A stretch of 64,000 nt of DNA, from the NCBI GenBank assembly GCA_016790075.1, contig JAEUPP010000079.1, forward strand, positions 145,885-209,884, given 5' to 3'. The notes under the pieces are model-generated. The model made no database searches. It was not told the origin of the DNA and worked only from the letters and a program-made list of their open reading frames with translations. Shown here in pieces: positions 16,445 through 34,672 of the stretch; position 1 is the first letter of the stretch, and every line of letters starts with the position of its first letter. This stretch comes from Rhodanobacteraceae bacterium. Lineage in GTDB: Bacteria > Pseudomonadota > Gammaproteobacteria > Xanthomonadales > Rhodanobacteraceae. Position numbers and translations under genes: made by a program.

Positions 16445-16470
16445 GCCGCGCCGCTTCAGCGCGGCGCGGC
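16445..16470. terminator. strong hairpin spanning the NRPS stop codon
   Basis: GCCGCGCCGC (16445-16454) and GCGGCGCGGC (16461-16470) form a perfect 10-bp GC stem with a 6-base loop; the NRPS stop codon (16456-16458) lies in the loop. It may act as a terminator or attenuator between the NRPS and the AraC gene, though no U tract follows. Confidence 0.45.
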
Positions 16471-19400: not shown

Positions 19401-22400
19401 GACGCAGCGGCAACGTACTCACGAGCAGGCCGATCAACGGCTGTGCCTCGGGTCGCGAACGGTTCGCGCTAGGCGTACCAACGACAATGTCAGCCTGGGC
19501 GGACAACCGGGAAAGCAGCAATGCCCAACTTGTTAGTAGCACGACAAATGGTGTGGTGCCGAAGCGGCGCGCCGTCGCACGCACACGCGCCGAGAGGGTT
19601 CTGTCGAGGCGGCAGGAAACAAACGCGCCGCTGAAGTCTTGCTGTGTCGGCCGCACGCGATCAGCTGCGAGTTCGAGCAGTGCAGGTGCGCCATGAAGCT
19701 TCGCTCGCCAATACGACGCCAGGTGCTGTGTATGTCGTGCGCTTGCCTGGCGTTGAGCGAGTGCCCAGTCGGCGAATTGCCATGTAAGAGGCGGTAACGT
19801 GGCTGCAACGCCGGCTGCGGCGGCGTTGTAAAGCGCTGCAAAATCTTGCAGCAACACCCTCGTCGACCACCCGTCACTTACAATGTGATGCATTGCGAAG
19901 AGCAGGACGTGACTCTCGTCGGACTCTGCGTACACGCAGACTCGAAACAGAGGCCCGCTTTCCAGGTTGAAGTGACGGTCTGTTTCATCCTCAATGAAAT
20001 CTTGCAGGCCGGTTGCGTAGTCCGCGCTGTGTGAAGCACGACGGATAGCGACGGCGCAGGCACGCGGCGGGAGAACGCGCATTTTGGGACGGCCGTCATG
20101 TTCAGTGAACACAGTGCGTAGCGATTCGTGGCGTTCGAGCAGTCCATCAAGGCTGCGCGCAAGTGCCGAACCGCTGAGATGGCCGTGGAGGCGCAGACCA
20201 AATACGATGTTGTAAGCTGCGGCTGCACCAGGCAGTTTGCTCAAAAACCACAACCCTTCTTGCTCGAATGAAAGACTCCCTCTTTCCGTGCTGATCGGAG
20301 CTGAGGGTTCGACCGCATCCGCGGGGCCTGCGCGTTCCAATAGTCGCGCGAAGTCACTGAGTACAGGATGTGCAAACAAGTCAGGCAGAGTTGCTTCAAT
20401 GGTCAATGTCCGGCGTAACCGCGCCAGAACCTGTACCGCAGCAAGAGAGTGACCGCCAAGCTCGAAGAAGTGAGCGTTTGCTCCGGGTGGGGAACAACCC
20501 AAGACGTCGCTCCAGATTTCAGCGAGCAAGGTCTCTATATGCGTGGACGGAGCAACGAATTCGTGTTCGACCGATTCATCGATGAGAGGTAGCGCGCTGC
20601 GATCGACTTTACCGTTTGGCGTCAATGGCAGACGTGGAACGACAATGAATTGTGCTGGCACCATGTAGTCCGGCAACAGGCGTCCGAGCGCAGCAGCGAG
20701 TTCCCGCGTTTTTCGAGTCTCATTTGCGAGCTGCATCGGAATATTGGTCGAGGCGCCAGGCGGTTCGGTCCGCCCAGTAAGCAATCGGTCGTGGCACTTT
20801 ATTAGCTCCGCGGCCTTCGCTATCAGCAGATGGAAGCGGCCTTCGCGGTCGGACCCCAACCAACTAGCTTCAGCGCAGTAGCCGTGGCTCTGCAATTGCG
20901 CCACTGCTTCGGCTGGGCTCAGCCGCAGTTGGCAATCACTGGACGTACCATCGACGAGCTCGTTTCCGATATTCTCGATCACCGCAACGAGTGTAGAGTC
21001 GTCCGCAAGTGCGTCCAGCGCTCTCGCCAGCGTCGTTGGATCACCGGAGGCATCGAAGTAACGCGCATGCGCCAAGAATGGCTGCGCACTGTGTAGAACG
21101 ACATCGTAACGGTAAGTAGTAAGTTCGTTACGGTTCTCACTCGTCTTTGGTAATACCTGAATTTCTGAAACTCGCTGTTGCTCGACCAAGGCGCGGAAGT
21201 AGCCCGGCGCGACGAGAAGCTCTTTTTCACGACGCAGCGACTCGTGAGCAGCCCTGTCGAGTTCGCTGACCGATGCCGACGGCGCAGCGTAGCGGCTCTT
21301 TGAACGATGAAAATGCTCGGCAAGCAGTAGATTACGAACATCGCCGATGAACACGCGCCCACCAGCTGCGAGTCGTGCCAATGCTGCGTCAACTACATGG
21401 TCTAGATAGAGCTGATCCGGAAAGTACTGAATCACCGAGTTGATGATGATGGTGTCGTACAAGTCGGAACCGAAGCGATCCGTCTCATCAGCGCGAGCCT
21501 GAATCAGCTCGACTCCGGCGATGCGCTCTCGTTCAACTTTGCGCTGGAGATTGGTCAGCGCCTCGTTCGAAAAGTCGACTCCCACATAACGTGCGCAATC
21601 GCGTGCGAGGGCCAATAACAGCAGACCTGATCCGCAACCGATCTCCAGTACTCGCTGTGGTTGCAGCGCGCGTATGCGATCCACGGTCTGGTTCTGCCAG
21701 TCACGCATCTCGGCAATAGGAATCGGATCACCTGTGAAACTGCTATTCCAGCCACCAAAATCGAACAGTACATCGGGATCAGGAGCGCAGTAGTTCTCGT
21801 CGTACAGTCGCTGCCACTCATTCAGCCGAGATTCTTCGTCCGTATTGTTGTTGGTAAGGCTGACGTAGGCGACGAGTCGTGATGACGCAGGTAAGCCTGC
21901 AGCGACCACAAAAGCTTCACGTACGGTCGGTAGTGCAGTGAGGCAGGCTTCCACTTCACCCAACTCGACACGCATACCGCGCAGCTTGATCTGATCGTCA
22001 GCACGCCCCAAAAACTCGATACGCCCGTCTGTGAGTCGCCGTACCCGATCACCTGTTCGGTAAAGGCGAGCGCCGGAATCGGAAGCAAAGGGATCGGCAA
22101 CGAACATACGCGCTGTCAATTCAGGAAGCCCGAAGTATCCATTCGATATTCCGGCTCCACCGAGATATAACTCACCAGCTACACCGGCAGGTTGTGGTTG
22201 CATCAATGTGTCGAGAACATAAGCGTCTGTGTTTGGAATCGGGCGTCCAATTGTGATCGGACCAGTGCTTTCGACAGTGTCGAATGTCGCAACGACACTG
22301 GCCTCAGCTGGCCCGTAGAGGTTCAACAGCCGAAAACCGCACTGTGTCGGCGCGTGACGGGTCAGGCGGGCTCCGCCGGTAGCCAGTACACGCAACGTTG

Positions 22401-25400
22401 CTGGGAAAAGTCCTTGCGCCAGTGCGATTTCCGCAAGTGGCGTAGGCAGCATGCTGCTGTGGAATGGCTGCTGCGACCACCATTGAAGCAGCGCGTCGCC
22501 GTCGCGCGATGCCTCGACTGGAGAAAGGACGAGCGTTGCGCCCGCGCACAAGGTCGGCCAGATGTCGATTACGCTCGCATCAAACGCGAGGCCGCAGACT
22601 CCGGATGCTAGACGGCCTGGTGCAAGATCAAGCTCGTCAACGAGCCAGTCAACGAGGTTACCGAGCCCGCGATGCGTGACTGGAATACCTTTTGGGCGCC
22701 CGGACGAACCTGACGTGTAGATGACATAGGCAACTTCACCCTGTCGATTGGTTACTTCTGTCTGCGTTGCAGCTGACGGATCAATCCGAACACGTCCGCC
22801 GCGCGTTAACGTTGCAGGCGCTTTGTCCGTTGCTACGAGTGCACGAGCAGCGCAATCGTCGAGCATCTGTACCAGGCGAGCTTCTGGCAGCGCCGGGTCC
22901 AGCAACAAATAGGCGGCGCCGGTCTTTAACACAGCGAGCAAAGCAACAATGAGGTCGATGCTGCGCGGAAGATGAATGCCGACTCTATCCTCCGCGCATA
23001 TTCCGAGATCAATCAGTGCACCAGCGAGATTCACTGCGCGCGAGTTGATCTCAGCATACGTTGCACTGTCGTTGCGATGGCAAACGGCGACAGTGTGAGG
23101 CAGCAAAAACGCGTTTGCTTCTATGCGGTCATGAACCGTTTGCGGATCAGCACAGCGCCGCTTGCCGCATGATTCGTCTACTATTCGCTGCTTTTCAGCG
23201 GCATCGAGCAGCGGCAGTCGATTCAGTGTCAAAGAGCTATCGGTGACAAAAGCCGCCAAAAGGGTTTGCCAATGCCCAAGATAGCGTTCGATAGTGGTGC
23301 GGTCGAACAGGCTTTTTGCATACTCGATGCCGCCGCTGAGCCCGTCATCGGACTCCCACAGATACAGGGTAACGTCGAATTTGGCGCTTTTTCCGCTACG
23401 CAATAGCTGTTGTGAAACGACTAAACCGTCGAGTGCTACGGTAATCGGCGCAACGCTCTGCCACGCTAATGCGACCTGGAATAGTGGTGTATAGGCGGCG
23501 CTACGCTCTGGCTTCAATGCTTCGACGATTTGCTCGAAAGGAAGCTCGTGATGTCGCTGAGCCGCAAGCACTTCGTCGCGGCAACGCAAAACCAGCGAAT
23601 GAACTGTGGGGTCGCCACTCAGGTCAATCCGCAATGCGAGTGTGTTGGCGAAAAAACCAATCAGTCTTTCGGTTTCTTCATGGTTTCTGTTGGCTACCGG
23701 CGCGCCGACAACCAGATCGGTTACACCAGACAGCCGTGATAGCAGTGCTGACCAGCTCGCCAGTACAGCGACAAACAGCGTTGTTCCTGCCTGCTCAGCA
23801 ACTGCGCGAAGTCGTTCAGTGGTTGATGACGAAATCGCGCACTCGACGAAGTCGCCGCTAAAATCCTGCAGCGGAGCGCGCGGGCGGTCAGTTGGCAGTT
23901 CAAAAAGCGCCGGCGCGCCAGCGAGCCTCTCTTTCCAATAACGCGCATGATGCGCGAGCTGGCTTTCGGTGAGGTGATGCCTTTGCCAAATTGCATAGTC
24001 AGCATACTGAATCGGCAAGGCCGGTAGCGGAAGTGGCTCATGTCGCAGGGCGGCGGAGTAATGCATCTGCAGCTCACGTTGGAATAACGTGAGCGACCAA
24101 CCGTCACATGCGATGTGATGCACTGTGATCGCAAGTACATGGTCCTGCTCGTCGACGCAGATTAACGCTGCGCGCAGCGGCGGATCCGACGCTAGATCGA
24201 AACGTATATCAATCTGTGCGTCGATTGCAGCACGCAGTGCGTCTTCGTCGTCACCGTCGACGCTGACTTCGGACAGCAAAGGCATGCTTGGCGCGGCGGG
24301 TAATATCTGCTGGTATGGCTCGCCATCAATAAGCGGAAATACGGTGCGCAGCGCTTCATGACGCAGCAGTATCGAGCTAAACGCTTGCTGCAGTGCCTCT
24401 TTGTCCACGGGCCCGAAAATCCGCAGCACTAGTGGCATATGGTACGCACGACTCGCATCAGTGCTGGTCTGCGCAATGAACCAAAGTCGCTGTTGTGCGA
24501 ATGACAGCGGTATTTGCGCACCTGGCTCTCGTTCTCGCGGCGCCGGCAACGGGGGTGCTTCGCTTTGGGCCACAACAGCGGCGAAATCAACGAGGATAGG
24601 ACGAGCGAACAGCTCGGCAACACCGACTTCGATGCCAAGTCGTTTTCGAAGCCACGCGACTACCCGAACGGCGAGTAGCGAATGACCTCCAATGCGGAAA
24701 AAATCGTCATGGCGATCAATCGTCCTGCCATCAAGCAGCTCGCTCCAAATTGCAGCGACGTCGCGCTCGACACCGGATCGAGGTATTTCCCGGAGCGGTC
24801 GCTCCGCTATCGCCGGTGGTGGTAGTGCATGCCGATCGAGCTTTCCGTTGGCATTCGCCGGCAACCGGTCGAGCGTGACATAGATACTCGGAACCATGTA
24901 ACTCGGAAGAAACTGCAGCAGATGCTCGCGCAACGTGGCGGCTAGTGAGGTTTTTGCGCCTTCATCCGAAGGACATGGTGCGCAATAAGCAACAAGATGC
25001 TGTTCTGTACCAACGCGACGAAGCGCCACTGCAGCATCCGTAATCTGCGGATGTTCACGCAATTGTGTCTCTATTTCGGCAAGTTCGATCCGGTGACCAT
25101 GGAATTTAATTTGCCCATCGTTGCGCCCAAGATGATGCAATATCCCAGACTCGTCCCAGCGAGCCAGATCACCGCTACGGTACATGCGTTGCCCCGGCAC
25201 AAAGGGGTCGCACAGGAAACGTTCGCGCGTGAGTTCATTGAGTCCAACATATCCGTGAGCAACACCTTCGCCAGCAATATAGATCTCGGCCGTAACTCCA
25301 ACAGGAACCGGTTGGCCCGCTTCGTCGAGTAAGTAGATTCTCGTATTGGCAAGCGGTCTGCCGACGGCTTCGATAACGTCCAGTCCGACAGCATTTCGTT

Positions 25401-27819
25401 GTACGCGATGCAGCGTGGACCAAACAGTAGTTTCGGTAGGACCATAAACGTTCCACAGTGCTGCGACGCGTTCCGCGATGCGTAGAGCTAATTCGCGATG
25501 AAGTGGTTCGCCACCGCTAAGGGCGCGCAAGCCGGGTTCACCCGGCCAGCCGGAATCAAGCAGCATCCGCCACGTAGTAGGCGTTGCCTGCATGATGTTG
25601 ATGGCCGACCTGCTCAGAACTCGTGCAAGTTGGCCCGGGTCATAGGCGGCTTCGCGATCGGCCACTACGACGCACGCAGCCTGCATCAGCGGAAGAAAGA
25701 GTTCGAGTACCGCAATGTCAAACCCGATTGTGGTCAGCGCAAGCACGCGATCATCTTCGCGCAAGTCGAGTGCTTCGCTCATCGCTAGCAGCAGGTTCAT
25801 CACGCTGCTGTGCTTGACAATGACCCCCTTGGGCAAGCCTGTCGTTCCAGAAGTATAAATGACGTAAGCAATGTCATCTGGGTGCGGCAGCTGTGGCAGC
25901 CCCGAGTATTCCTGACTGAGCAGCAGCAACTCATCAATGTTCAACACGAGGGCAGTGTCGGCGACGACATTGATAGCGATGTCGTCGCGACAGAGCAGGG
26001 CTGAAACGCCGGCATCATTGATGATGAAGTCCCGTCGTGCGGATGGCAGCTGCAAATCGACTGGCACATAAGCCGCACCGCAGCGCATTGTTCCGAGCAT
26101 GGCCGCAAGCATTGCCATGCCGCGTTCTATGCAAATTGCTACAGTATTTCCTTTTCCAATGCCGCGTCCTGCCAACTGAGCAGCCACTCGAGACGTCGCC
26201 ACGTCCAGTTCTGCATAGCTCCAGCGCTCGTTTCCGTGCTCGACCGCGATAGCCGATGGCATTCGCTGCGCGTGATGGCTTAGCTTGTCGATGATCGTGA
26301 GCGATGGCAGTGGAACGGTTGTAGCGTTCCATTCGACTAGCGCGCGGTGCCTCTCATCTGCCGTAAGTAGATCGACTGAAGACAATACTCGATTTTCATC
26401 AACGCAAAATGCTTCAAGTATTCTTATCCAGTAAGAAATAAACCGGTCTATGCTTGGTCTGTCGAATAATGAGCTTGCATACTCAGCGCCGATAGTAATT
26501 TCACCGGCGCTCTCCCATATCAACAGCGCGATGTCTAGTTTGGCTGGGACGTTAGTAACGGTGCCGCCGTACAAGGCCAGTGGAGATGCTTGCTGAGGCA
26601 GCATGGCTGCAGTAGAGCTGTACTTTGCAATCAATCGATCGAGTGGATGCACCGCTAGTTCCGCAAACGAAATAGCTTCGTGCGTAGCGCCGTACCAGTT
26701 CAGTAGTGTTTGAAACAGCGGGTTATAGGACAGGTTTCTTTCGACGTTTGCTGCATCAACTATGCGGTCGAATGACAGGTCTTGTTGCGCTGCCGCAGCG
26801 CGCAGGCTTGCCGCAGTTCTTGCTACAAATTCCGCGATCGTTGAGTCGTTTTCGGCTGCTGTGCGCACGGGTACAGTTCCGACGAAGCAGCCGATGACGT
26901 CACGATACTCCGCGACGGTACGTCCAGATGTCGACACGCCGACTACGCTTTCGCTCCGTGCGTTAAGCCGTTGGAGCAGTGCCGCCCAGCCCGCAAGCAA
27001 CACACCAAACAAACTCGCGCCGAGGCGATGGGCCAGCGCGCGCAGCCGTAGCGTCGAAGCTGCATCTATCCGAGCGTGTGTGAAGTCGCCAGCAAACTCA
27101 TGTTGTGCTGCGCGTGGCCGATCGCTCGGCAGTGATGATTGAAGCGGCGCCCCTTGCAACTCGATTCGCCAGAACTGCTCTTGCTGTCGTAAGCGCTCCG
27201 ACCAGTCATCCCGGCTTTGATGGATGACGACGTCGCGGAACGTTCGCGCAGGAGTGTGCCGAAGCGGCCTCCCTTCGACTAGATCGATATAAGCAGCACC
27301 AAAATCACGCAGAAACAACTGCAGCGATGTACCGTCAAAAATCACATGGTGAACGTTGACGAGCAGTACATGATGATTCTGGCTACGCTTCAGCAGCTGT
27401 GCGCGAATTAGTGGACCGCTGCCAAGGTCAAACGGTGAGAAAAAAGCATCGTCGATCAACGCATCAATCGCGCGTTGATCGGCGGTCGTAAGATCAAGCA
27501 AGTCGAGCTGGGGGATGGACGCTCTATCATCGAACCGCAACTGCGGTTCGCCGTCAGCTTCTTCAATGCGCAGGTAAAATACATCGCGACACTCGCATGC
27601 CGCCCGGAATGCGTGCTGAAGCGCCGCAGGGTTCAACTCCCCCCGTAGCTGCAGCCCGGTCGAAATCACGTAGGCCGATGATGCTTGGGAGCTCAGTCCA
27701 GACAGAAACCAGATACGCCGTTGCGCGTGCGCTAACGGCATTTTGAGAGGGAGTGAACTAGCTGGATTTGTGCCCTGAGTGCGGTGCGTTTCTGTACCGC
27801 CCTGGATGAGCTCTGTCAT
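16456..27819 (-). CDS. trimodular non-ribosomal peptide synthetase with embedded methyltransferase and thioesterase
   Basis: A 3787-residue NRPS with domain order C1 (about 30-480), A1 (513-993), T1 (Ser near 1043), C2 (1106-1540), A2 with inserted methyltransferase (1570-2406; SAM motif EIGCGSGLL near 2060, insert about 2000-2345), T2 (near 2456), C3 (2515-2955), A3 (2973-3466), T3 (near 3512) and a type I thioesterase (3545-3787, GWSFG). All three C domains keep HHxxxDG (HHVIFDG, HHIACDG, HHIVSDG) and all T domains keep GGHSL. Aligned to GrsA from memory, the A1 code reads DILQLGVVWK (close to Gly), A3 DVWHVSLIDK (Ser), and A2 DAIMAGLVVK (unassigned). The leading C domain and the lack of an upstream module suggest N-acylation of Gly or input from an enzyme elsewhere. 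GGGGGGGAT precedes the start. No MbtH or phosphopantetheinyl transferase is visible. Confidence 0.95.
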   Translation of the reverse strand: MTELIQGGTETHRTQGTNPASSLPLKMPLAHAQRRIWFLSGLSSQASSAYVISTGLQLRGELNPAALQHAFRAACECRDVFYLRIEEADGEPQLRFDDRASIPQLDLLDLTTADQRAIDALIDDAFFSPFDLGSGPLIRAQLLKRSQNHHVLLVNVHHVIFDGTSLQLFLRDFGAAYIDLVEGRPLRHTPARTFRDVVIHQSRDDWSERLRQQEQFWRIELQGAPLQSSLPSDRPRAAQHEFAGDFTHARIDAASTLRLRALAHRLGASLFGVLLAGWAALLQRLNARSESVVGVSTSGRTVAEYRDVIGCFVGTVPVRTAAENDSTIAEFVARTAASLRAAAAQQDLSFDRIVDAANVERNLSYNPLFQTLLNWYGATHEAISFAELAVHPLDRLIAKYSSTAAMLPQQASPLALYGGTVTNVPAKLDIALLIWESAGEITIGAEYASSLFDRPSIDRFISYWIRILEAFCVDENRVLSSVDLLTADERHRALVEWNATTVPLPSLTIIDKLSHHAQRMPSAIAVEHGNERWSYAELDVATSRVAAQLAGRGIGKGNTVAICIERGMAMLAAMLGTMRCGAAYVPVDLQLPSARRDFIINDAGVSALLCRDDIAINVVADTALVLNIDELLLLSQEYSGLPQLPHPDDIAYVIYTSGTTGLPKGVIVKHSSVMNLLLAMSEALDLREDDRVLALTTIGFDIAVLELFLPLMQAACVVVADREAAYDPGQLARVLSRSAINIMQATPTTWRMLLDSGWPGEPGLRALSGGEPLHRELALRIAERVAALWNVYGPTETTVWSTLHRVQRNAVGLDVIEAVGRPLANTRIYLLDEAGQPVPVGVTAEIYIAGEGVAHGYVGLNELTRERFLCDPFVPGQRMYRSGDLARWDESGILHHLGRNDGQIKFHGHRIELAEIETQLREHPQITDAAVALRRVGTEQHLVAYCAPCPSDEGAKTSLAATLREHLLQFLPSYMVPSIYVTLDRLPANANGKLDRHALPPPAIAERPLREIPRSGVERDVAAIWSELLDGRTIDRHDDFFRIGGHSLLAVRVVAWLRKRLGIEVGVAELFARPILVDFAAVVAQSEAPPLPAPREREPGAQIPLSFAQQRLWFIAQTSTDASRAYHMPLVLRIFGPVDKEALQQAFSSILLRHEALRTVFPLIDGEPYQQILPAAPSMPLLSEVSVDGDDEDALRAAIDAQIDIRFDLASDPPLRAALICVDEQDHVLAITVHHIACDGWSLTLFQRELQMHYSAALRHEPLPLPALPIQYADYAIWQRHHLTESQLAHHARYWKERLAGAPALFELPTDRPRAPLQDFSGDFVECAISSSTTERLRAVAEQAGTTLFVAVLASWSALLSRLSGVTDLVVGAPVANRNHEETERLIGFFANTLALRIDLSGDPTVHSLVLRCRDEVLAAQRHHELPFEQIVEALKPERSAAYTPLFQVALAWQSVAPITVALDGLVVSQQLLRSGKSAKFDVTLYLWESDDGLSGGIEYAKSLFDRTTIERYLGHWQTLLAAFVTDSSLTLNRLPLLDAAEKQRIVDESCGKRRCADPQTVHDRIEANAFLLPHTVAVCHRNDSATYAEINSRAVNLAGALIDLGICAEDRVGIHLPRSIDLIVALLAVLKTGAAYLLLDPALPEARLVQMLDDCAARALVATDKAPATLTRGGRVRIDPSAATQTEVTNRQGEVAYVIYTSGSSGRPKGIPVTHRGLGNLVDWLVDELDLAPGRLASGVCGLAFDASVIDIWPTLCAGATLVLSPVEASRDGDALLQWWSQQPFHSSMLPTPLAEIALAQGLFPATLRVLATGGARLTRHAPTQCGFRLLNLYGPAEASVVATFDTVESTGPITIGRPIPNTDAYVLDTLMQPQPAGVAGELYLGGAGISNGYFGLPELTARMFVADPFASDSGARLYRTGDRVRRLTDGRIEFLGRADDQIKLRGMRVELGEVEACLTALPTVREAFVVAAGLPASSRLVAYVSLTNNNTDEESRLNEWQRLYDENYCAPDPDVLFDFGGWNSSFTGDPIPIAEMRDWQNQTVDRIRALQPQRVLEIGCGSGLLLLALARDCARYVGVDFSNEALTNLQRKVERERIAGVELIQARADETDRFGSDLYDTIIINSVIQYFPDQLYLDHVVDAALARLAAGGRVFIGDVRNLLLAEHFHRSKSRYAAPSASVSELDRAAHESLRREKELLVAPGYFRALVEQQRVSEIQVLPKTSENRNELTTYRYDVVLHSAQPFLAHARYFDASGDPTTLARALDALADDSTLVAVIENIGNELVDGTSSDCQLRLSPAEAVAQLQSHGYCAEASWLGSDREGRFHLLIAKAAELIKCHDRLLTGRTEPPGASTNIPMQLANETRKTRELAAALGRLLPDYMVPAQFIVVPRLPLTPNGKVDRSALPLIDESVEHEFVAPSTHIETLLAEIWSDVLGCSPPGANAHFFELGGHSLAAVQVLARLRRTLTIEATLPDLFAHPVLSDFARLLERAGPADAVEPSAPISTERGSLSFEQEGLWFLSKLPGAAAAYNIVFGLRLHGHLSGSALARSLDGLLERHESLRTVFTEHDGRPKMRVLPPRACAVAIRRASHSADYATGLQDFIEDETDRHFNLESGPLFRVCVYAESDESHVLLFAMHHIVSDGWSTRVLLQDFAALYNAAAAGVAATLPPLTWQFADWALAQRQASARHTQHLASYWRAKLHGAPALLELAADRVRPTQQDFSGAFVSCRLDRTLSARVRATARRFGTTPFVVLLTSWALLLSRLSAQADIVVGTPSANRSRPEAQPLIGLLVSTLPLRLDLSGTPHLSELLKRVERCSLEAQQHQDIAFEKIVESVCETRSLAYNPIFQVMFAWQGGVTDVPLLHGATASLLHDCVPRHAKFDLSLNLADAVDGIHGGIEFASALFDVETIERYKDHWLTILSCVVNGADPTIDCIDVLSSDQRHRVLVEWNDTARDFPHDCCLHDLVRKQAQATPSAVALESGPEQLTYAQLEERADRLACHLRMAGVRSGSFVAVHISRSMPMIVAVLAILKAGGAYVPLDTTHPDARKIHVLDDCKPKWLLHAGEIPSLETLATIPLLIDVMAAMAESSLQESVVTQDSTELAYLIYTSGSTGLPKGVMLQHRSIVNRLTWMQRHFSIGPADVVLQKTALGFDVSVWEVFLPLICGARLVLAEQDSHRDPERIARVMREKRVTILHFVPSMLHLFLAQRGTLDFPHLRYVVCSGEELPPAVVEDCLRKLPGVEIQNLYGPTEASIDVSWHRCSPNHGAARVPIGRPIDNCRLYVLDAEHRLVPPGVTGELYIGGTPVARGYFNRPALNAERFLPDPFANDTREHMYKTGDQARWLPNGEIDFLGRNDAQIKLRGFRIELSEIESHLVRFPDVSEAAVALRRDVNGEAVLVAYWVAASITEGVNALMLRAHLAAVLPDYMVPALFVRMDQLPLNSNGKLDRNALPAPEAAHVATLTDTAPQGALEQRVAAAWHDVLGRQDVGRGDNFFSIGGHSLLTLRLCRRLEMDGLHVDIADIFRCPTIHSLADLLQRHEVETRSALVEIRSQGKESPLFLCHDGFGLVLYAHVLAPHLPDDVPLYGLATTVEEDEESASISLLAEHLLRVLRERQPHGPYRLAGWSFGGLLAYELATRLVDAGEQVDYLGLIDSYYRFDEPTTDERPADFAETPLHVAALEPARQQECLARHEIYALAARRYAARPLHLRVDLIKAQRCDFPAMQAYRGWERVLPLSALRVHEVDGCHFSMMTPPFITGTAAALAEGLQAAPR

Positions 27820-27882
27820 ATCCCCCCCGATTGTCGCGAGTCAGAAGCACTCAAGTGCGCTGGGGTAGGTATGGCCCAGCAT

Positions 27883-29775
27883 CTAGTTCCTTATGCCGTC
27901 AAGTACCGATTCTGTAATTTGCTGTCTATCAGTAGGGTGCGGTCTCAGAGATCCGTCCTCGAATACAGCGACACGATCGCGACCACAGAGCTTCGCTTTG
28001 TACATCGCGTTGTCGGCGCAGGCGAGCAAATGGTTTAGCTCATAGCCAGCTTTCTTGGTTGAAGCGACGCCGAAGCTTGCCGACACCAGAAATTCACCGA
28101 GTACGCCGTCAGTGGCCGAAACAGTCACCGCTTTTCTCAATTGCTCGGCAAGGGAAACGGCTACCTGCTCGTTGGAGTCCGCAAGGAGAATTGAAAATTC
28201 CTCGCCGCCTAGCCGCCCAAAATGAGGATTAGAGCCTAAATATGATCTGCATGCAGCAGCAACCTTCCGGAGAACGTCGTCACCTGCCGCATGTCCGTAA
28301 CGGTCGTTAATCAGCTTGAAGTAATCGAGGTCGAACAAGATGGCCACGGCTTCCTTGTTGTTGCGTCGACATTCTTCTAGTGAGCGCATCGACAGCTCAA
28401 GGAACCGCGACCGGTTGGCGATCCGCGTGAGGCTGTCGCGCTCCGATAGCGTTCGGAAGTAAATTTGTCTACGTTTCGTATAGAACGCCCATAGAAATAC
28501 AAGAAGCAAGCCCGATATTAGCAGCGCAATATAAAGACGACTTGTTTCTGCTGCCTTTGCGCCTAGATCCTGTCGCAGCTGCAGAACCTGGTTCTTCTTG
28601 TTTAATGCTTCGATTTCCAATCGCGAAGCGAGTGCGCGATGCTTGGCCATTTGATAAGCCAAGGAGCGGGTTGTCTCATCATCCAGGCTCTGCCGATAGG
28701 CTTCGGCGTACTTTTCGTGGAATCCAAGTGCAGTTCTTGGATCGTCTCTTCTGACAGCAATTTGATAGAGCAATCGATAGGCGCCGATAAGGGAGTCAGT
28801 GACTTCGTTTGGCACGCGCTTGTCGATCGCACGCAATGCATAGCTGTGTGCTCTGTCAATTTCACCCAGGTGCCAATTGGCTTCGGCGAGGATGATATCG
28901 AATTCGGAAATCACCCGGAGATAGCGGGTGTTTTGCACTTCGTCGTAGTGGCGGTTGAGCAAATCAATCGCCTCGCTGTATCGCCCAGTATCAATGTACT
29001 GTTGCGCCTGAAAACCGCGAATGATATTCGCGAACACTACCTCACGGTGCTGATTGCATATCTGGAGCCCGAGTCGAATTTCTTCACCGTCTGCCTGTAG
29101 CTTTTTGAGCTTGTACAGAGACTCCACTCGAAGTTCGCGCGCAATGCATTCGCCACGAAGGCCCTCGCGCTCCCTTAGCAGCGTAGTACTGTAGTCGAGC
29201 CCGAGTTCATACTGGCCTGCCTGATTGTTCAGCAATGCCGCCGCGTGAAGTCCTTGCTCGCGAGCCAGAGGATCGGTCGTATTCGCCATCTGTCCCACTA
29301 GCAGGTCGAGGTGTGTATACGCCTCGAGGTAACGCTGCGCAATGCTTAGATTGCTAATCATGCTAGCCGTCGCTCGAAAGCGAAGCACGGGATCGTCAGA
29401 ATTACTGACGACTGAGTTGTATAGCGGAATCGCGGCGTCATAGTCACCTGCGTAGCCACGCTCCCACCCTCGCAGATAGTTCAGGTATTGAACTTGCGGC
29501 TTCGTAAGAGTGCTTTGCTGCTCGCCGATAGATTGAACCATCCGGAGAAATTCCGGATAGTTCGAACTCTTTAGCGTGTCAGCCGTGTGCAGCTGCTGGT
29601 CGATGTCGATCGTTTCCGCCACGACAATCCTACTGACGGTGCAAAACACCGCCAGCAGGATAGCTACAGCGTAAAGGCCCGATCGCAGGCAGTAAGAATC
29701 CGCGCCGAGCTGGCGAGTGCCTTTAACCAGCGGCACACGCAGATCGCAGCATGCTGGAGCGGATTTCCTCGTCAT
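27883..29775 (-). CDS. membrane diguanylate cyclase with TPR-like periplasmic domain
   Basis: A 630-residue protein. An N-terminal signal anchor (around residues 33-52, LYAVAILLAVFCTVSRIVVA) is followed by a TPR-like helical region to about 400, a coiled coil, a second membrane segment (IALLISGLLLVFLWAFY near 420) and a C-terminal GGDEF domain with intact GGEEF and DYFKLINDRYGHAAGD. It should make c-di-GMP from GTP. The RxxD inhibitory site upstream of GGEEF is absent, so simple product inhibition is not expected. The ATG at 29775 lies inside the preceding small gene (53-base overlap); a GTG at 29736 would overlap less. It ends 63 bases before the NRPS start. Confidence 0.9.
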   Translation of the reverse strand: MTRKSAPACCDLRVPLVKGTRQLGADSYCLRSGLYAVAILLAVFCTVSRIVVAETIDIDQQLHTADTLKSSNYPEFLRMVQSIGEQQSTLTKPQVQYLNYLRGWERGYAGDYDAAIPLYNSVVSNSDDPVLRFRATASMISNLSIAQRYLEAYTHLDLLVGQMANTTDPLAREQGLHAAALLNNQAGQYELGLDYSTTLLREREGLRGECIARELRVESLYKLKKLQADGEEIRLGLQICNQHREVVFANIIRGFQAQQYIDTGRYSEAIDLLNRHYDEVQNTRYLRVISEFDIILAEANWHLGEIDRAHSYALRAIDKRVPNEVTDSLIGAYRLLYQIAVRRDDPRTALGFHEKYAEAYRQSLDDETTRSLAYQMAKHRALASRLEIEALNKKNQVLQLRQDLGAKAAETSRLYIALLISGLLLVFLWAFYTKRRQIYFRTLSERDSLTRIANRSRFLELSMRSLEECRRNNKEAVAILFDLDYFKLINDRYGHAAGDDVLRKVAAACRSYLGSNPHFGRLGGEEFSILLADSNEQVAVSLAEQLRKAVTVSATDGVLGEFLVSASFGVASTKKAGYELNHLLACADNAMYKAKLCGRDRVAVFEDGSLRPHPTDRQQITESVLDGIRN

Positions 29776-30007
29776 CGTCTTGTTTTTTCTCCGGCGCGTC
29801 GTCTTCGGCCGGAGCCATGCCGCATATGACGTTTGCCCTCGCGCCTAGCAGTTGCTCAAGTCGCTGCTGATCTCGGGCGATCAGCGCGTCGCTGAGTTCC
29901 GGAGTCAGTTGCTCCCGCTGCACGGCGTTGCTTAGCTCGACCGCAGAAGCGCGAATTAAGCGGCTGTCGCGACCTACACGCTCAAGAAAGTCAATAACTT
30001 TGGACAT
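29723..30007 (-). CDS. putative split-borosin precursor peptide
   Basis: A 94-residue peptide starting MSKVIDFLERVGRDSRLIRA (ATG at 30007, AAGGGG 7 bases upstream). Residues 4-54 look like a small helical recognition domain (LTPELSDALIARDQQRLEQLL) of the kind seen in SonA-type borosin precursors, which as I recall share FxxxxG-D and LT-x-E/Q plus D-x-x-x-L spacing. A short hydrophobic stretch A58-N-V-I-C-G-M64 follows where the SonA core is methylated, then an acidic tail. It overlaps the GNAT gene by 17 bases and lies one gene after a borosin-type methyltransferase. A Nif11/NHLP-type leader is the main alternative family. Length and context fit a RiPP precursor; the modification is inferred. 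Confidence 0.72.
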   Translation of the reverse strand: MSKVIDFLERVGRDSRLIRASAVELSNAVQREQLTPELSDALIARDQQRLEQLLGARANVICGMAPAEDDAPEKKQDDDEEIRSSMLRSACAAG

Positions 30008-30569
30008 GACTAACCCCTTGGTGACTGTTGCAGGTTTCAGAAGTGGCACGGAACCGCACGAATAGGCTCATTGATGCCGCAGCTCCCTCGGCAGCAGGCC
30101 TGACCAACGAGAAACCAGCGAGGCGAGCGACGCGCGCCGCGGCGAGATTGTCAGCACTAGCACGTCCGTAAAGACGGGCCAAGCCAAGCTCCGAGAACGC
30201 CCACGAAGCAACAGCTTCAAGGCCTTCGCGTGCCGCACCAGTCGCGTGTGCTCTCCGCCGTAGAATCAATCCAATTTCTGCGCACCGTTCACTTAGGTCG
30301 ATGTCCCTAAGTGCGCAGATTCCGGCGCTCCAATTTGTTGCTCCATGAACAAGACTGAAGTAGATATGGCGCGGTGGCCGGTCGTGCGAGGCCACAACCG
30401 CGGCACGAAAACTTCGCTCTGCCTGTTCGCGCTGCAATGCCATACCAACGTGTCGCATTAGCCGCACATCCGTGTACAGCTCGCAGTAGAGCGACTCATC
30501 GTTCGCGGCTAACGGCGCGATACGCAACGACCCTGCTGTAGACGAGCACGTAGTAGTGGCGACGGTCAT
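29991..30569 (-). CDS. GNAT acetyltransferase (RimJ/RimL type)
   Basis: A 192-residue GNAT-fold protein with the RimL-like layout: an N-terminal substrate segment (SLRIAPLAANDESLYCELYTD), a core beta-alpha region with CAEIGLILRRRAHATGAAREG (acetyl-CoA pyrophosphate loop) and the C-terminal RASADNLAAARVARLAGF. Its ATG overlaps the methyltransferase stop codon (ATGA), and its 3' end overlaps the precursor start by 17 bases, so the three are translationally coupled. That makes it a candidate tailoring enzyme of the borosin product or a self-protection enzyme. The substrate is unknown. Confidence 0.85.
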   Translation of the reverse strand: MTVATTTCSSTAGSLRIAPLAANDESLYCELYTDVRLMRHVGMALQREQAERSFRAAVVASHDRPPRHIYFSLVHGATNWSAGICALRDIDLSERCAEIGLILRRRAHATGAAREGLEAVASWAFSELGLARLYGRASADNLAAARVARLAGFSLVRPAAEGAAASMSLFVRFRATSETCNSHQGVSHVQSY

Positions 30570-31363
30570 GGGTAGCCTATTGCTGCGTCCAACTCATCCA
30601 ACCGCTTACGCACAACCAGATTCGGTTCAAGCTCGCGCGCCGGCGGCAGTACTACCGTAGCGTGGAGATCAATGTCAGCGGTGACCAGACCCGCGATCGT
30701 GGTGTGTTCGATACGGGGTGCGTGGATAGGCAGGGTGGCGACCTTGTAGATGATTGCCGCATGGTCACGCGGGTAGTCCTGGGTCAGCACGTCGACCAGC
30801 ACTTCGCGATAGGCGGCCGGTGTCGAGAAACGTGCCAGCGACTGGTCGCCGGCAATACCGACCTGCCAGAGCACCAGATATGCCGAGGTATCAATCCGGC
30901 GCCGGTAGAACATGAACTGGCTGGCTTCAAAATGCTGGCAGCCGACGCGGCCGGGATCAATGCCGAGGTCGGCATAAAGGCAGTCTTCGGCCGAGATCCC
31001 GGGATCCATGTGAGCGGCGTAGCCTTCCGCCCGCGCCAGCGTAATCGCGCGATGCGGCGGCAGGGCGAAGACGCCGGGGTGGCCGTAAAAGGCGCCGACG
31101 ACTTTCTTGCCAGCGCGAACCTCACTCAGCATGGCCTCGACCATGTGCTCGTAGGTACGCAGCCGCGACAGGCCCTCACGATAGTAGGGCTGCAGGCTGC
31201 GTACGTCCGCGTGCAGGCTCTGTAGCCAGAGCTCAACGACGCCGTCGGACACGCCGGCAAAAACGACATCAGCCTGTTCAATGTAACTGCGTGCGAGCGG
31301 GCTCAAGTGCGAGCCCAAGGTCATGCCCAGGCCCACACAGACCAGACTGCCCTTGTGCGCCAT
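30566..31363 (-). CDS. borosin-type peptide backbone alpha-N-methyltransferase (tetrapyrrole methylase superfamily)
   Basis: A 265-residue SAM-dependent methyltransferase. It begins KGSLVCVGLGMTLGSHLSPL and carries YYREGLSRLRTYEHM, GAFYGHPGVFALPPHRAI and GISAEDCLYADLGIDPG, which closely follow the catalytic domain of OphMA and the bacterial split enzyme SonM. Tyr60/Tyr61, Arg67, Tyr71 and Tyr93 match the catalytic Tyr/Arg set reported for these enzymes (numbering compared from memory). It lacks a fused precursor at its C-terminus, as in split borosins, and the candidate precursor is two genes downstream. GGAGGGGAGC precedes the ATG at 31363. No cobalamin or haem genes are nearby, so a tetrapyrrole substrate is unlikely. 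Confidence 0.9.
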   Translation of the reverse strand: MAHKGSLVCVGLGMTLGSHLSPLARSYIEQADVVFAGVSDGVVELWLQSLHADVRSLQPYYREGLSRLRTYEHMVEAMLSEVRAGKKVVGAFYGHPGVFALPPHRAITLARAEGYAAHMDPGISAEDCLYADLGIDPGRVGCQHFEASQFMFYRRRIDTSAYLVLWQVGIAGDQSLARFSTPAAYREVLVDVLTQDYPRDHAAIIYKVATLPIHAPRIEHTTIAGLVTADIDLHATVVLPPARELEPNLVVRKRLDELDAAIGYP

Positions 31364-31870
31364 GCTCCCCTCCGTCCGGTCCGTCCGCCCCTGCTGCGTG
31401 CTATTGCCGCGCCGGAACGTACCGCTGAAGACGGAACTTATTCGCAACCGGTGCAGCGCATCAAGTGCGAAGTTGTTGCTTCGTGCGAAAAGATCGGATT
31501 CTCCTCTGCAACGCCGATGTGTTTTTCACCGGAAAAGGGTACTGGCCAGTATGACTATGGCGGCCCTTGGGCTGCTCGGATCGGCTGGTGTCCCAGGGCT
31601 GGTGGGTGTCCCAGGGCTGGTGGGTGTCCCTGGGCTGGTGGGTGTCCCTGGGTTGGTGGGTGTCCCAGGGTTGGTGGGTGTCCCAGGGTTGGTGGGTGTC
31701 CCAGGGCTGCCCCGTGGACTGTCCTGGACTGGTGGACTGAGAAGCCCTGCGAGGTATTGCCAAATGGTTGCGAGAGGCGATCAGCCTTACCGGCGAGTAA
31801 CAACATTTGTGCCTGAGAGTAGGGGCACGAATGCGGCATCATGCCGTCCATTCTCACCGCGGTATGGCCA
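31364..31870. promoter_or_regulatory. divergent region between borosin operon and LysR gene
   Basis: About 500 bases without a credible gene. It must carry the promoter of the borosin operon (leftward) and of the LysR gene (rightward); LysR proteins often control the divergent neighbour. It also contains the 18-bp tandem repeat at 31587-31709. ORFs crossing it are repeat-derived. I could not identify a confident promoter or LysR box. Confidence 0.5.
31587..31709. repeat. 18-bp tandem repeat, about seven copies
   Basis: Units of the form GGTGTCCCAGGGCTGGTG are repeated head to tail about seven times with single-base variants (cccaggg/ccctggg, gctggt/gttggt). The period is exactly 18 bases. 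There are no spacers, so it is not a CRISPR array. Confidence 0.9.
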
Positions 31871-32800
31871 ATGAGCCGTCAGTTTGATGACCTTATGCTG
31901 GGCAGCATCGAGCTGTTCTGCCTCAGCGTCGAGCACGCCAGCTTTACCGCCGCTGCGACGGCGGCTGGTTTGACTCCACCGGCGGTAAGCCGTGCCATAG
32001 GCCGTCTTGAACAACGGCTGGGCGTGCGCCTGTTCACGCGTACGACGCGGCAGATCCATCTTACCGACGCAGGGCGCGTCTACTTCCAGCAATGCCGCCA
32101 GGCATTGAATCAGCTGATCGATGCGGAACGCGAAATCGGCGGCCAGCAGCTCGTTCCCTCGGGCAACTTGCGCATCAGCATACCCACGCCGCTGGGCCAC
32201 TGCCGCATCTTGCCAGTGCTGCCGGCGTTCCGTGCACGCTATCCGAATGTGCAGCTCGATGTGCATGTCAGCGACCGCAATGTCGACCTGACGGCTGACG
32301 GTTACGACCTTGTCGTGCGTGGACGCACGCCGCCGGATTCGAGCTTCGTTGCGCGAAAGTTGCTGGACGCCGAGCTGGTCGTTATCGCGACACCGGCCTA
32401 TCTCGCGCAAGCGGGAACGCCAAAGACCCTGGATGATCTGGCCAGGCACGAGTGCCTGCAGTTCCTTCTGCCTCGCAACGGCCAGCCAGTACCCTGGCTG
32501 TTTCGCGAGCACGGCGCTGACCTGGAACTGCCGACTCGGGGCGGCATAGCCTGCGCAGAGCACTTGCTCGCCGCCGTCACGCTTGCGCGTCATGGCGGAG
32601 GCCTGCTGCAGACCTATCGCTTTATTGTTGAGAACGATATCGCGCGCGGCGATCTGGTGGAGGTACTGCGCGACTACGGCGGGCGCTCACGACCGTTCTC
32701 ACTGATCTACGCTGGCGGTCGTCATATGCCGCTATGTCTGCGCGTGCTTATCGATTTTTTGCTGGCCGCGTTCGGCCAAGGCGCGTCAACAACGGCCTGA
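31871..32800 (+). CDS. LysR-family transcriptional regulator
   Basis: A 309-residue LysR regulator. The N-terminal winged helix-turn-helix (IELFCLSVEHASFTAAATAA, SRAIGRLEQRLGVRLFTRTTR, TDAGRVYFQQC) is followed by the effector domain (LRISIPTPLGHCRILPVLPAF ... GYDLVVRGRTPPDSSF, YLAQAGTPKTLDDLARHECL). The ATG at 31871 places the usual 9-12 residues before the first helix; ATGs at 31841 and 31895 are alternatives. It is divergent from the borosin operon with about 500 bases between. The effector is unknown. Confidence 0.9.
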   Translation: MSRQFDDLMLGSIELFCLSVEHASFTAAATAAGLTPPAVSRAIGRLEQRLGVRLFTRTTRQIHLTDAGRVYFQQCRQALNQLIDAEREIGGQQLVPSGNLRISIPTPLGHCRILPVLPAFRARYPNVQLDVHVSDRNVDLTADGYDLVVRGRTPPDSSFVARKLLDAELVVIATPAYLAQAGTPKTLDDLARHECLQFLLPRNGQPVPWLFREHGADLELPTRGGIACAEHLLAAVTLARHGGGLLQTYRFIVENDIARGDLVEVLRDYGGRSRPFSLIYAGGRHMPLCLRVLIDFLLAAFGQGASTTA

Positions 32801-33256
32801 TTCCTGTCACCCAGCGAGCTCTTCGATTCCGCGCTAACGCGTTCGCGCAGAACCGTGCACCTCACCACGGGTACTGGCTGCCACGAAGGAGATCGGGAAA
32901 TCCGGGTAGAAGCTCCGGGCGGCGTAAGAGCCTGGACATGCGCGAGATCCGGAGATCCGGGACACGCAGAAATTCTGCGTGAGCTCGACATTCCGGACAC
33001 CCAGCAGAGACCAACCCCCAAGACTGGGAGACCGGCGAAACAGGGACGGCGAAATTGGGACACCCAAGAAACCTCGGAGTGCGGGGGCGGACCAGAAAGC
33101 CAGTGAGGGCGGGACAGGTGAGGGCGAGGACACGCACCGAGATCCGCAAGATCCAGCGCAGTTTCTCGGCGGATTCTGCGGATTCTGGACATCCACGAGG
33201 ATGCAGCAAGCTACCGCCAGTGCCGGCCGCCGCCGGGGCGGCGGCCGGCACTAGCC
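32801..33256. other. gene-free purine-rich intergenic region with hairpins
   Basis: No credible gene. It contains a perfect palindrome CACGCAGAA-A-TTCTGCGTG at 32963-32981, several imperfect direct repeats (gagatccg, ggattctg) and four copies of a GGACACsC core (near 32961, 32993, 33055 and 33126) that recurs elsewhere in the window. The short ORFs here show no protein-like composition. Confidence 0.5.
33219..33252. terminator. very stable hairpin just beyond amtB
   Basis: A perfect inverted repeat: the left arm starts AGTGCCGGCCGCC and the right arm ends GGCGGCCGGCACT, giving a stem of about 16 bp with a minimal loop, located 5 bases past the amtB stop codon. It probably ends the glnA-porin-glnK-amtB transcription unit. 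Confidence 0.6.
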
Positions 33257-34672
33257 TCAGCGGTCGTAGGCCGATTCCCCATGCGAAGTAATGTCGAGTC
33301 CCTCGCGCTCCTCGTCGGCTGCTACGCGCAAGCCGCCAGGGGCCAGGCTCGCAAGCTTGAAAGCAATAAACGCGACCACCGCCGACCAGAGCACAGTGAT
33401 GACGATGCTGGTGCTTTGTACCAGTAGCTGCGCCGCTATCGAATACGAATCGCCAACCTTGTCAGCGACGTAATCGTAAACACCCGTGCCGCCCAGCGAC
33501 GGTGCGGCGAATACGCCGGTCAGCAACGCACCGACTATGCCGCCGACGCCATGCACGCCGAACACATCCAATGCGTCGTCGGCGCGCAGCAGCCGCTTCA
33601 ATCCGGTAACGCCCCAGAGGCAGGCCAGGCCGGCGACAAATCCAATGGCAAGCGCACCGCCGAGGCCGACGAAACCAGCTGCCGGTGTGATACCAACAAG
33701 ACCGGCGACTGCGCCCGATGCCGCGCCCAGCATGGATGGCCTGCCCTTGCTGATCCACTCGCCGGCGGTCCAGGCCAGTATCGCCGCACAGGGCGCAATC
33801 AATGTGTTGACGAAGGCCAAGGCAGCCGTGCTGTTGGCTTCAAGTGCAGATCCCGCGTTGAAGCCGAACCATCCCACCCAGAGGATGGCTGCCCCAGTCA
33901 TGGTCAGTGCGAGGTTGTGCGGTCGCATCGCCTCGTGACCATAGCCTATACGCTTGCCGACCAGCCAGGCGCCGACGAGAGCCGCGACTGCGGCATTGAT
34001 ATGCACTACTGTGCCGCCGGCAAAATCAAGCGCCCCTTGCCTGAACAGGAAACCCGAGCCCGCTGTTGCCGCAGCCCCGGCCGCGGCATCGGTAAATGCG
34101 TCCGGGCCAGGCCAGAACCAGACCATGTGTGCAATGGGTATATAGCTAAACGTAAACCAGACCACGGTAAACACAAGCACAGCGCTGAAGCGGATACGTT
34201 CGGCGAATGCGCCGACGACGAGCGCGCAGGTGATGCAGGCGAACGCGGCCTGAAACGCGAAATAGCCTAGCTCTGGCACGACTACCCCCTTGGAAAAGGT
34301 TGCCGCATTTGCTTCGGGCGTGAGTCCGCGCATCAGCAGTCGGTCGAAGCCGCCGACGAAGGCATTGCCGGAGGTGAATGCAAGGCTGTAGCCGTACAGG
34401 CTCCAGAGTACGGCGACCAGCGCGAACACGAGCACACATTGCATCAGCACCGACAGCATGTTCTTGGACCGCACCAGGCCACCGTAGAACAGGCCGAGTC
34501 CGGGCAACGTCATGAAAATCACCACCGCGGTGCAGACCAGCAGCCAGGCCGTATCGCCCTTGTTCGGTGCGGCTGCGGCTTGCGCGAACAGGTCGGGAGC
34601 AAATCCGCCGAGCAAGACCGCGGCGGCGAGAGCGTGACGCGTGGCGGTGCGTGGAGTGGAATTCAAATTCAT
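33257..34672 (-). CDS. amtB: ammonium transporter AmtB
   Basis: A 471-residue protein with a signal-like N-terminus (ALAAAVLLGGFAPDLFAQA) and 11 transmembrane helices. Family segments include TLPGLGLFYGGLVRSKN, the pore-region FAGGTVVHINAAVAAL, LWVGWFGFNAGSA and DALDVFGVHGVGGIVGALLTG (the second pore His). It conducts ammonia across the inner membrane and is blocked by GlnK, whose gene lies immediately upstream. I chose the ATG at 34672 because GAGGGAAG lies 6 bases upstream; an ATG at 34687 overlaps the glnK stop codon and is possible. Confidence 0.95.
   Translation of the reverse strand: MNLNSTPRTATRHALAAAVLLGGFAPDLFAQAAAAPNKGDTAWLLVCTAVVIFMTLPGLGLFYGGLVRSKNMLSVLMQCVLVFALVAVLWSLYGYSLAFTSGNAFVGGFDRLLMRGLTPEANAATFSKGVVVPELGYFAFQAAFACITCALVVGAFAERIRFSAVLVFTVVWFTFSYIPIAHMVWFWPGPDAFTDAAAGAAATAGSGFLFRQGALDFAGGTVVHINAAVAALVGAWLVGKRIGYGHEAMRPHNLALTMTGAAILWVGWFGFNAGSALEANSTAALAFVNTLIAPCAAILAWTAGEWISKGRPSMLGAASGAVAGLVGITPAAGFVGLGGALAIGFVAGLACLWGVTGLKRLLRADDALDVFGVHGVGGIVGALLTGVFAAPSLGGTGVYDYVADKVGDSYSIAAQLLVQSTSIVITVLWSAVVAFIAFKLASLAPGGLRVAADEEREGLDITSHGESAYDR

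Follow-up and report, generated by a model that had tools for sequence, protein, structure and literature searches.

A 64,000-nucleotide stretch of DNA (the window) from a Rhodanobacteraceae bacterium (GenBank assembly GCA_016790075.1, contig JAEUPP010000079.1, positions 145,885 to 209,884) carries four minus-strand genes that probably form one operon and encode, in order from window position 31363 down to 27883, a methyltransferase, a GNAT acetyltransferase, a precursor peptide and a sensor diguanylate cyclase. We consider it reasonably likely that this operon couples a type IV split-borosin pathway to a cyclic di-GMP (c-di-GMP) sensor of its own, with the product acting as a signal. By all sequence features tested, the methyltransferase and the precursor are a type IV split-borosin pair; the new point of this analysis is the link to the cyclase. 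The genomic coupling of precursor to cyclase is strong, and the product is most likely the ligand or partner of this dedicated enzyme; its export, its binding and a c-di-GMP output are inferred. An earlier note on this DNA had described the first three genes, and the open reading frames (ORFs) bear out the coordinates and overlaps that it gave; it left the strand (minus) unstated and overlooked the fourth gene, a cyclase with tetratricopeptide repeats (TPR) and a GGDEF domain. The features are as follows.

30566..31363, minus strand: type IV split-borosin alpha-N-methyltransferase, 265 amino acids (aa), ATG start, as assigned by Pfam, a PDB search and active-site alignment.
29991..30569, minus strand: GNAT acetyltransferase (Acetyltransf_3), 192 aa; Pfam 7.6e-20 and neighbourhood in related loci.
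29723..30007, minus strand: borosin precursor, 94 aa, with binding domain, short hydrophobic core and acidic tail, as assigned by matches to SonA.
29840..30007, minus strand: borosin-binding domain, precursor residues 1-56; alignment to SonA residues ~1-55, and predicted local distance difference test (pLDDT) values of 83-90 in blocks over residues 1-50.
29807..29839, minus strand: probable core, precursor residues 57-67 (RANVICGMAPA), from its position relative to the SonA core and from repeats in relatives.
27883..29775, minus strand: sensor diguanylate cyclase with signal peptide, TPR, membrane helix and GGDEF; 630 aa when counted from the first ATG.
28462..29613, minus strand: TPR-like sensor domain, predicted periplasmic; alignment, AlphaFold2 and Foldseek.
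27973..28440, minus strand: GGDEF domain; Pfam, residues 446-601.

The methyltransferase and GNAT genes share an ATGA junction, the GNAT and precursor genes overlap by 17 bases, and the cyclase ORF, read from its first ATG as a provisional start, overlaps the precursor gene by 53 bases.

Judging from their sequences, the methyltransferase and the 94-aa protein almost certainly constitute a type IV split-borosin pair. The methyltransferase stands alone, as the earlier note had it: its 265-aa ORF has neither a fused precursor nor a clasp, and TP_methylase (4.9e-19) is its single Pfam domain above cut-off. A PDB search matched it to SonM (E 2.9e-78) and OphMA (about 1e-50), and all 25 PDB matches at E<=0.01 were borosin enzymes; identity as a cobalamin or sirohaem methylase was rejected because none occurred among these 25. 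The enzyme is 54% identical to SonM over 201 aligned columns and contains the motifs YYREGLSRLRTYEHM, GAFYGHPGVF and GISAEDCLYADL, which had been taken as the borosin signature. Its Tyr61, Arg67, Tyr71 and Tyr93, said to be in place, do align with SonM Tyr58, Arg67, Tyr71 and Tyr93, and these four active-site residues are conserved in 132-133 rows of a 134-row alignment in which certain genomes are present twice. SonM residues Tyr58, Arg67, Tyr71, Tyr93, Phe99, Glu146, Trp166 and Gln167 are all identical in the window enzyme (each kept in 132-134 of the 134 rows), and Glu173 is replaced by Asp, as it is in 116 of them. A stray tetrapyrrole methylase lying next to an unrelated small protein would account for the Pfam label and for weak NCBIfam matches to YabN and cobalamin enzymes, far under cut-off; set against the SonM match, the exclusively borosin PDB matches, the catalytic residues and a SonA-type precursor, it is extremely improbable.

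The small protein two genes downstream had been credited with a SonA-like recognition domain, and the comparisons agree. As a single sequence it matched SonA only at E 0.53; a profile built from 70 precursor relatives retrieved SonA first, at E 1.6e-6. Foldseek searches with its predicted structure (mean pLDDT 76) returned SonA chains as the first eight matches, with weak E-values (best 0.51) and a template modelling (TM) score of 0.74 for the best target. The binding domain is followed by the short hydrophobic stretch RANVICGMAPA and then by an acidic tail. Past this domain, one related precursor has doubled CLLVP units (L014) and another repeated ALMPxFS-like units (L227). A same-genus relative (L005:2867-3286) ends in four K(D/E)EEEIR-type repeats followed by variable residues, and resembles a multi-core precursor. 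Two precursors from loci with fused methyltransferase-GNAT proteins, in Steroidobacter and Povalibacter (L036, L037), carry long tails rich in lysine, which may be targets of acetylation; the precursor of the third such locus (L102) has no lysine-rich tail.

The link to the cyclase emerges from the best 80 of 98 methyltransferase relatives encoded on genome contigs. Their hosts include relatives of Tahibacter, Rhodanobacter, Dyella, Luteibacter, Lysobacter, Pseudoxanthomonas, Steroidobacter and Povalibacter, and of Rheinheimera, Arsukibacterium, Alkalimonas, Shewanella, Colwellia and Alteromonas. Judged by the methyltransferase, the nearest named relatives (89%) are two Lysobacterales metagenome-assembled genomes and Tahibacter caeni. 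A cyclase homologue is present in 79/80 loci, and in 78/80 the precursor is followed directly by the cyclase, with a gap of -9 to 97 bp (median about 32, counted up to where the conserved cyclase region is estimated to begin). Five loci contain two precursor-cyclase pairs each. With 29 GGDEF matches in the 5.6 Mb genome of the window, the cyclase is unlikely to be a chance neighbour.

Searches that started from the cyclase gave the same arrangement. The precursor lies directly upstream in all 30 of the best cyclase loci, window included, one of them (L144) having an apparently frame-broken precursor. Ten of the 30 have no methyltransferase in the 1.5 kb flank, and three of those ten (L201, L202, L203), refetched at 9-10 kb, still show a precursor-cyclase pair and no methyltransferase. 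Of 20 lower-ranked cyclase loci selected manually, a precursor is present in 14 and a methyltransferase, within 7 kb, in 4; a reversed-ORF control returned 0/2330. Because precursor-cyclase pairs occur away from the methyltransferase, one methyltransferase probably serves several of them.

Across 197 genomes of the window's family, the methyltransferase and the sensor domain each match 128, with both in 126 genomes, methyltransferase only in 2, cyclase only in 2 and neither in 67 (Fisher 1.3e-47, relatedness ignored). Four genera that otherwise have both genes (g1, g9, g17, g26) include genomes with neither. Of the cyclase-only genomes, one has a borderline match (G059, 5.8e-4), and the other is a draft of 86% completeness with precursor and cyclase (G179). 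A sensor-cyclase is found in all 128 methyltransferase genomes, as a fused protein in 5 and in 123 by a match at 1.7e-13 or better, a count taken by score. The sensor family is rare outside: among 274 genomes of the class, its profile reached E<=1e-10 in two, one being the window's own. In the same genomes the methyltransferase search at 1e-3 found eight (that of the window, four more at 2.3e-21 or better and three weak), and the precursor profile found two (that of the window and one weak).

The fused proteins come from one genus of the same family (L214-L218), in which ORFs of 829-893 aa join a signal peptide, TPR, GGDEF and a borosin methyltransferase. Six copies occur in five genomes, namely both methyltransferase-only genomes and three more of that genus, and a SonA-like precursor lies ahead of each copy. 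Pfam reports GGDEF and TP_methylase in 5/5 (one copy per genome); Tyr71 is missing from one of the six copies, and L217 has a methyltransferase fragment besides the fused protein.

The arrangement recurs with a more distant enzyme. A second methyltransferase, 48-53% identical to that of the window, occurs in all 16 Shewanella genomes searched, where both kinds coexist. In a further set of loci comprising 15 of these 16 (S. oneidensis not among them) and a second Colwellia locus, the cyclase comes after the precursor in 16/16, with profile matches over nearly the full length (E 1.3e-108 or better); the window's sensor domain reached 1e-5 by BLAST in only 4/16. Pfam on one of these loci (L181) identified GGDEF and TPR, and the precursors of the 15 Shewanella loci are SonA-like by eye. 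Gene adjacency, loci with two pairs, pairs located apart from the methyltransferase, matched presence and absence, and fusion together make a functional coupling of the borosin pair to the cyclase very likely.

A near-constant sensor beside the operon suggests that the peptides are signals, and with this fourth gene the cluster more likely represents a signalling module than the source of a tailored natural product. If the product were instead an ordinary borosin natural product (a toxin, metallophore or other), the cyclase would regulate its production or sense an unrelated cue, and the gene order would simply be inherited. Fungal borosin routes are described as natural-product pathways in the SonM paper (PMC8429565), and the GNAT profile, as detailed below, also matches MccE. 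Against such a product, the methyltransferase-free and the doubled pairs tie the cyclase to the precursor and not to the enzymes. Moreover, apart from the methyltransferase, GNAT, precursor and cyclase, no same-strand family exceeds 23/80 loci, the next commonest being a pepsin-like protease, and the remaining flanks are not conserved. We regard this alternative as improbable.

The GNAT is a usual partner of the methyltransferase, contrary to the earlier note, which had called it unusual. Same-strand members of this GNAT family occur within 1.7 kb of the methyltransferase, on its downstream side in 39/80 loci and upstream in 27/80; with the 3 loci in which it is fused to the methyltransferase, all borne out by Pfam, it is near (66) or fused in 69/80, and it is absent from the vicinity in 11/80. 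GNATs occur in the tailoring of ribosomally synthesized and post-translationally modified peptides (RiPPs) or in immunity to them. Self-protection of the MccE type, in place of precursor tailoring, could be read from the MccE profile match (3.7e-7, with SpeG-type enzymes first at 2.5e-15) and from a very divergent family with a variable acetyl-CoA loop; fusion to the methyltransferase suits a shared substrate, and a toxic product is without support, so we consider self-protection unlikely. The core contains Cys in 69/76 precursors from GNAT loci and in 10/17 from GNAT-free loci, a difference confounded by relatedness.

In the cyclase itself, Pfam recognizes GGDEF (5.3e-36), with the signature intact as GGEEF, and gives weak TPR matches under cut-off. 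AlphaFold2 models the sensor domain as an all-helical TPR superhelix (mean pLDDT 93.7), and two cysteines are invariant across 34 aligned sensor domains. We place the TPR domain in the periplasm because it is preceded by a signal peptide or first helix and followed by a second helix ahead of GGDEF. Among 84 profile-matched ORFs with a GGDEF start motif (those without it, many of them cut at locus ends, were left out), the N-terminus is hydrophobic in 73 and a helix precedes GGDEF in 82. Among the 50 Foldseek matches listed, the best TM-scores were those of RapF (0.58) and a phage Rap (0.57), both peptide-bound, followed by a subunit of the anaphase-promoting complex (APC/C, 0.56), Rap (0.55) and NprR (0.47-0.50).

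On this basis we propose a mechanism modelled in part on SonM. The methyltransferase would dock the precursor's binding domain and methylate backbone amides of the hydrophobic core (around residues 58-64). The core, often acetylated by the GNAT, would then be released; in certain relatives a pepsin homologue of the shewasin type might perform this cleavage. The peptide would enter the periplasm, where the TPR superhelix would bind it and thereby alter GGDEF output. Such a product would serve as a signal, or would report on its own maturation, and would not be an antibiotic. That the peptide is the ligand of the TPR domain is quite possible and tentatively put forward. Slightly more tentative is the general proposal that gammaproteobacterial type IV split borosins are N-methylated peptide signals, each sensed by a dedicated periplasmic TPR-diguanylate cyclase whose gene comes next, as a Gram-negative counterpart of Rap and NprR signalling.

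Several observations weigh against this reading. One locus has methyltransferase and precursor without a cyclase (L109), another has a cyclase and no detected precursor (L103), and 6 of the 20 lower-ranked cyclases lack a recognizable precursor. Four distant methyltransferases (L197-L200, 32-39% identity) showed no precursor or cyclase profile match in the fetched 7.7-11 kb; the cyclase link is therefore a property of this branch and not of all borosins. The genomes are related, so that the counts are not independent events. As to the fold, the lowest Foldseek E-values belong to eukaryotic LGN TPR chains, the APC/C subunit reaches a TM-score of 0.56, and TPR folds are mutually alike. The proposal is weakest on how the peptide would cross the inner membrane: a scan for ATP-binding cassette (ABC) ATPases, run with a control string, found one near only 2/80 clusters, and no exporter was evident. 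That methylation helps passive passage through the membrane is a guess.

The scarcity of ABC ATPases also favours the main rival, in which the precursor works as a small cytoplasmic protein that controls the cyclase from within through its methylation state, as read by way of the docked methyltransferase. The cyclase-methyltransferase fusion puts both enzymes together, presumably in the cytoplasm, and many precursors retain a tail past the core, acidic or, in L036 and L037, Lys-rich. However, the locus-specific part of the cyclase is the predicted periplasmic TPR domain, for which a cytoplasmic partner would have no use, and certain precursors repeat core-like units. Released peptides often have repeated core units in their precursors. 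We judge a cytoplasmic role to be rather unlikely, if the strongest of the competitors, and retain the periplasmic peptide signal as the preferred reading.

The pepsin-like aspartyl protease (shewasin type) noted among the neighbours lies upstream of the methyltransferase, for example at L044:1719-3323 and L098:2173-3444 (and at 21 other loci), and 16 of the 23 loci are from Shewanella. No such gene is in the window's cluster; the single pepsin-like gene of this genome is on a different contig (L111). Regular co-occurrence of the pepsin homologue within the family was rejected, since only 7/197 genomes have it. In PMC4814920, shewasin D of S. denitrificans is described as mainly cytosolic, with its in vivo function not established. 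That the pepsin homologue cleaves the precursor is a guess.

Elsewhere in the window, an 18-bp tandem repeat (6.8 copies) occupies 31587-31709, upstream of the methyltransferase gene, and just past the cyclase gene a 3787-aa minus-strand ORF (16456-27819) resembles a non-ribosomal peptide synthetase by eye, with an internal methyltransferase-like stretch. An Rfam scan of window positions 26000-34000 gave no family at the gathering threshold; in 16 of the 80 loci, the sole riboswitch was of the cobalamin type, on the opposite strand (L059).

At their first description, type IV borosins had no pathway tied to a final natural product, according to PMC8429565. A near-constant link to a dedicated c-di-GMP sensor, extending to cyclase-methyltransferase fusion, suggests a concrete function that can be tested. 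The link would connect peptide modification with second-messenger signalling and offers a possible role for bacterial pepsin homologues. If the proposal is correct, backbone methylation would give a peptide signal without an exporter resistance to proteases and perhaps passive passage through membranes; one methyltransferase would serve several precursor-receptor pairs per genome, with c-di-GMP as the output; and in one genus, receptor, cyclase and methyltransferase would be a single protein. A bacterial borosin product has reportedly been described since.

Among known systems, the closest is SonM/SonA of Shewanella oneidensis (PMC8429565; PDB 7LTC and others), which shares the separate methyltransferase and precursor, the active-site residues and the binding domain. 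The window differs in having a GNAT between methyltransferase and precursor, a Cys in the core and an acidic tail. SonM/SonA-like loci of other Shewanella species have a sensor-cyclase beside the precursor, as in the window. A term search of the SonM paper's main text (PMC8429565) gave no mention of GGDEF, cyclase or c-di-GMP. Among the papers listed in the literature searches none was seen to report a cyclase link, a search that left supplements outside its scope and so is not proof of unpublished status. The methyltransferase domain is homologous to that of OphMA and the fungal fused borosins, which carry their precursor on the methyltransferase chain itself; in one genus here it is a diguanylate cyclase that is fused to the enzyme. 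Shewasins, as bacterial pepsin homologues, enter the comparison through the pepsin-like gene near borosin loci, which hints at a link to borosins.

The peptide-pheromone receptors of the Rap, NprR and arbitrium (RRNPPA) systems offer a further comparison, having a TPR superhelix of comparable size. These receptors are cytoplasmic regulators of Gram-positive bacteria and their phages, and in the known systems the peptide gene adjoins the receptor gene. A similar arrangement, with the precursor gene beside the gene of the candidate receptor, is what 78 of the 80 loci display. In contrast to the RRNPPA receptors, the protein of the window is a membrane diguanylate cyclase, its TPR domain is predicted to be periplasmic and its peptide is predicted to be backbone-methylated.

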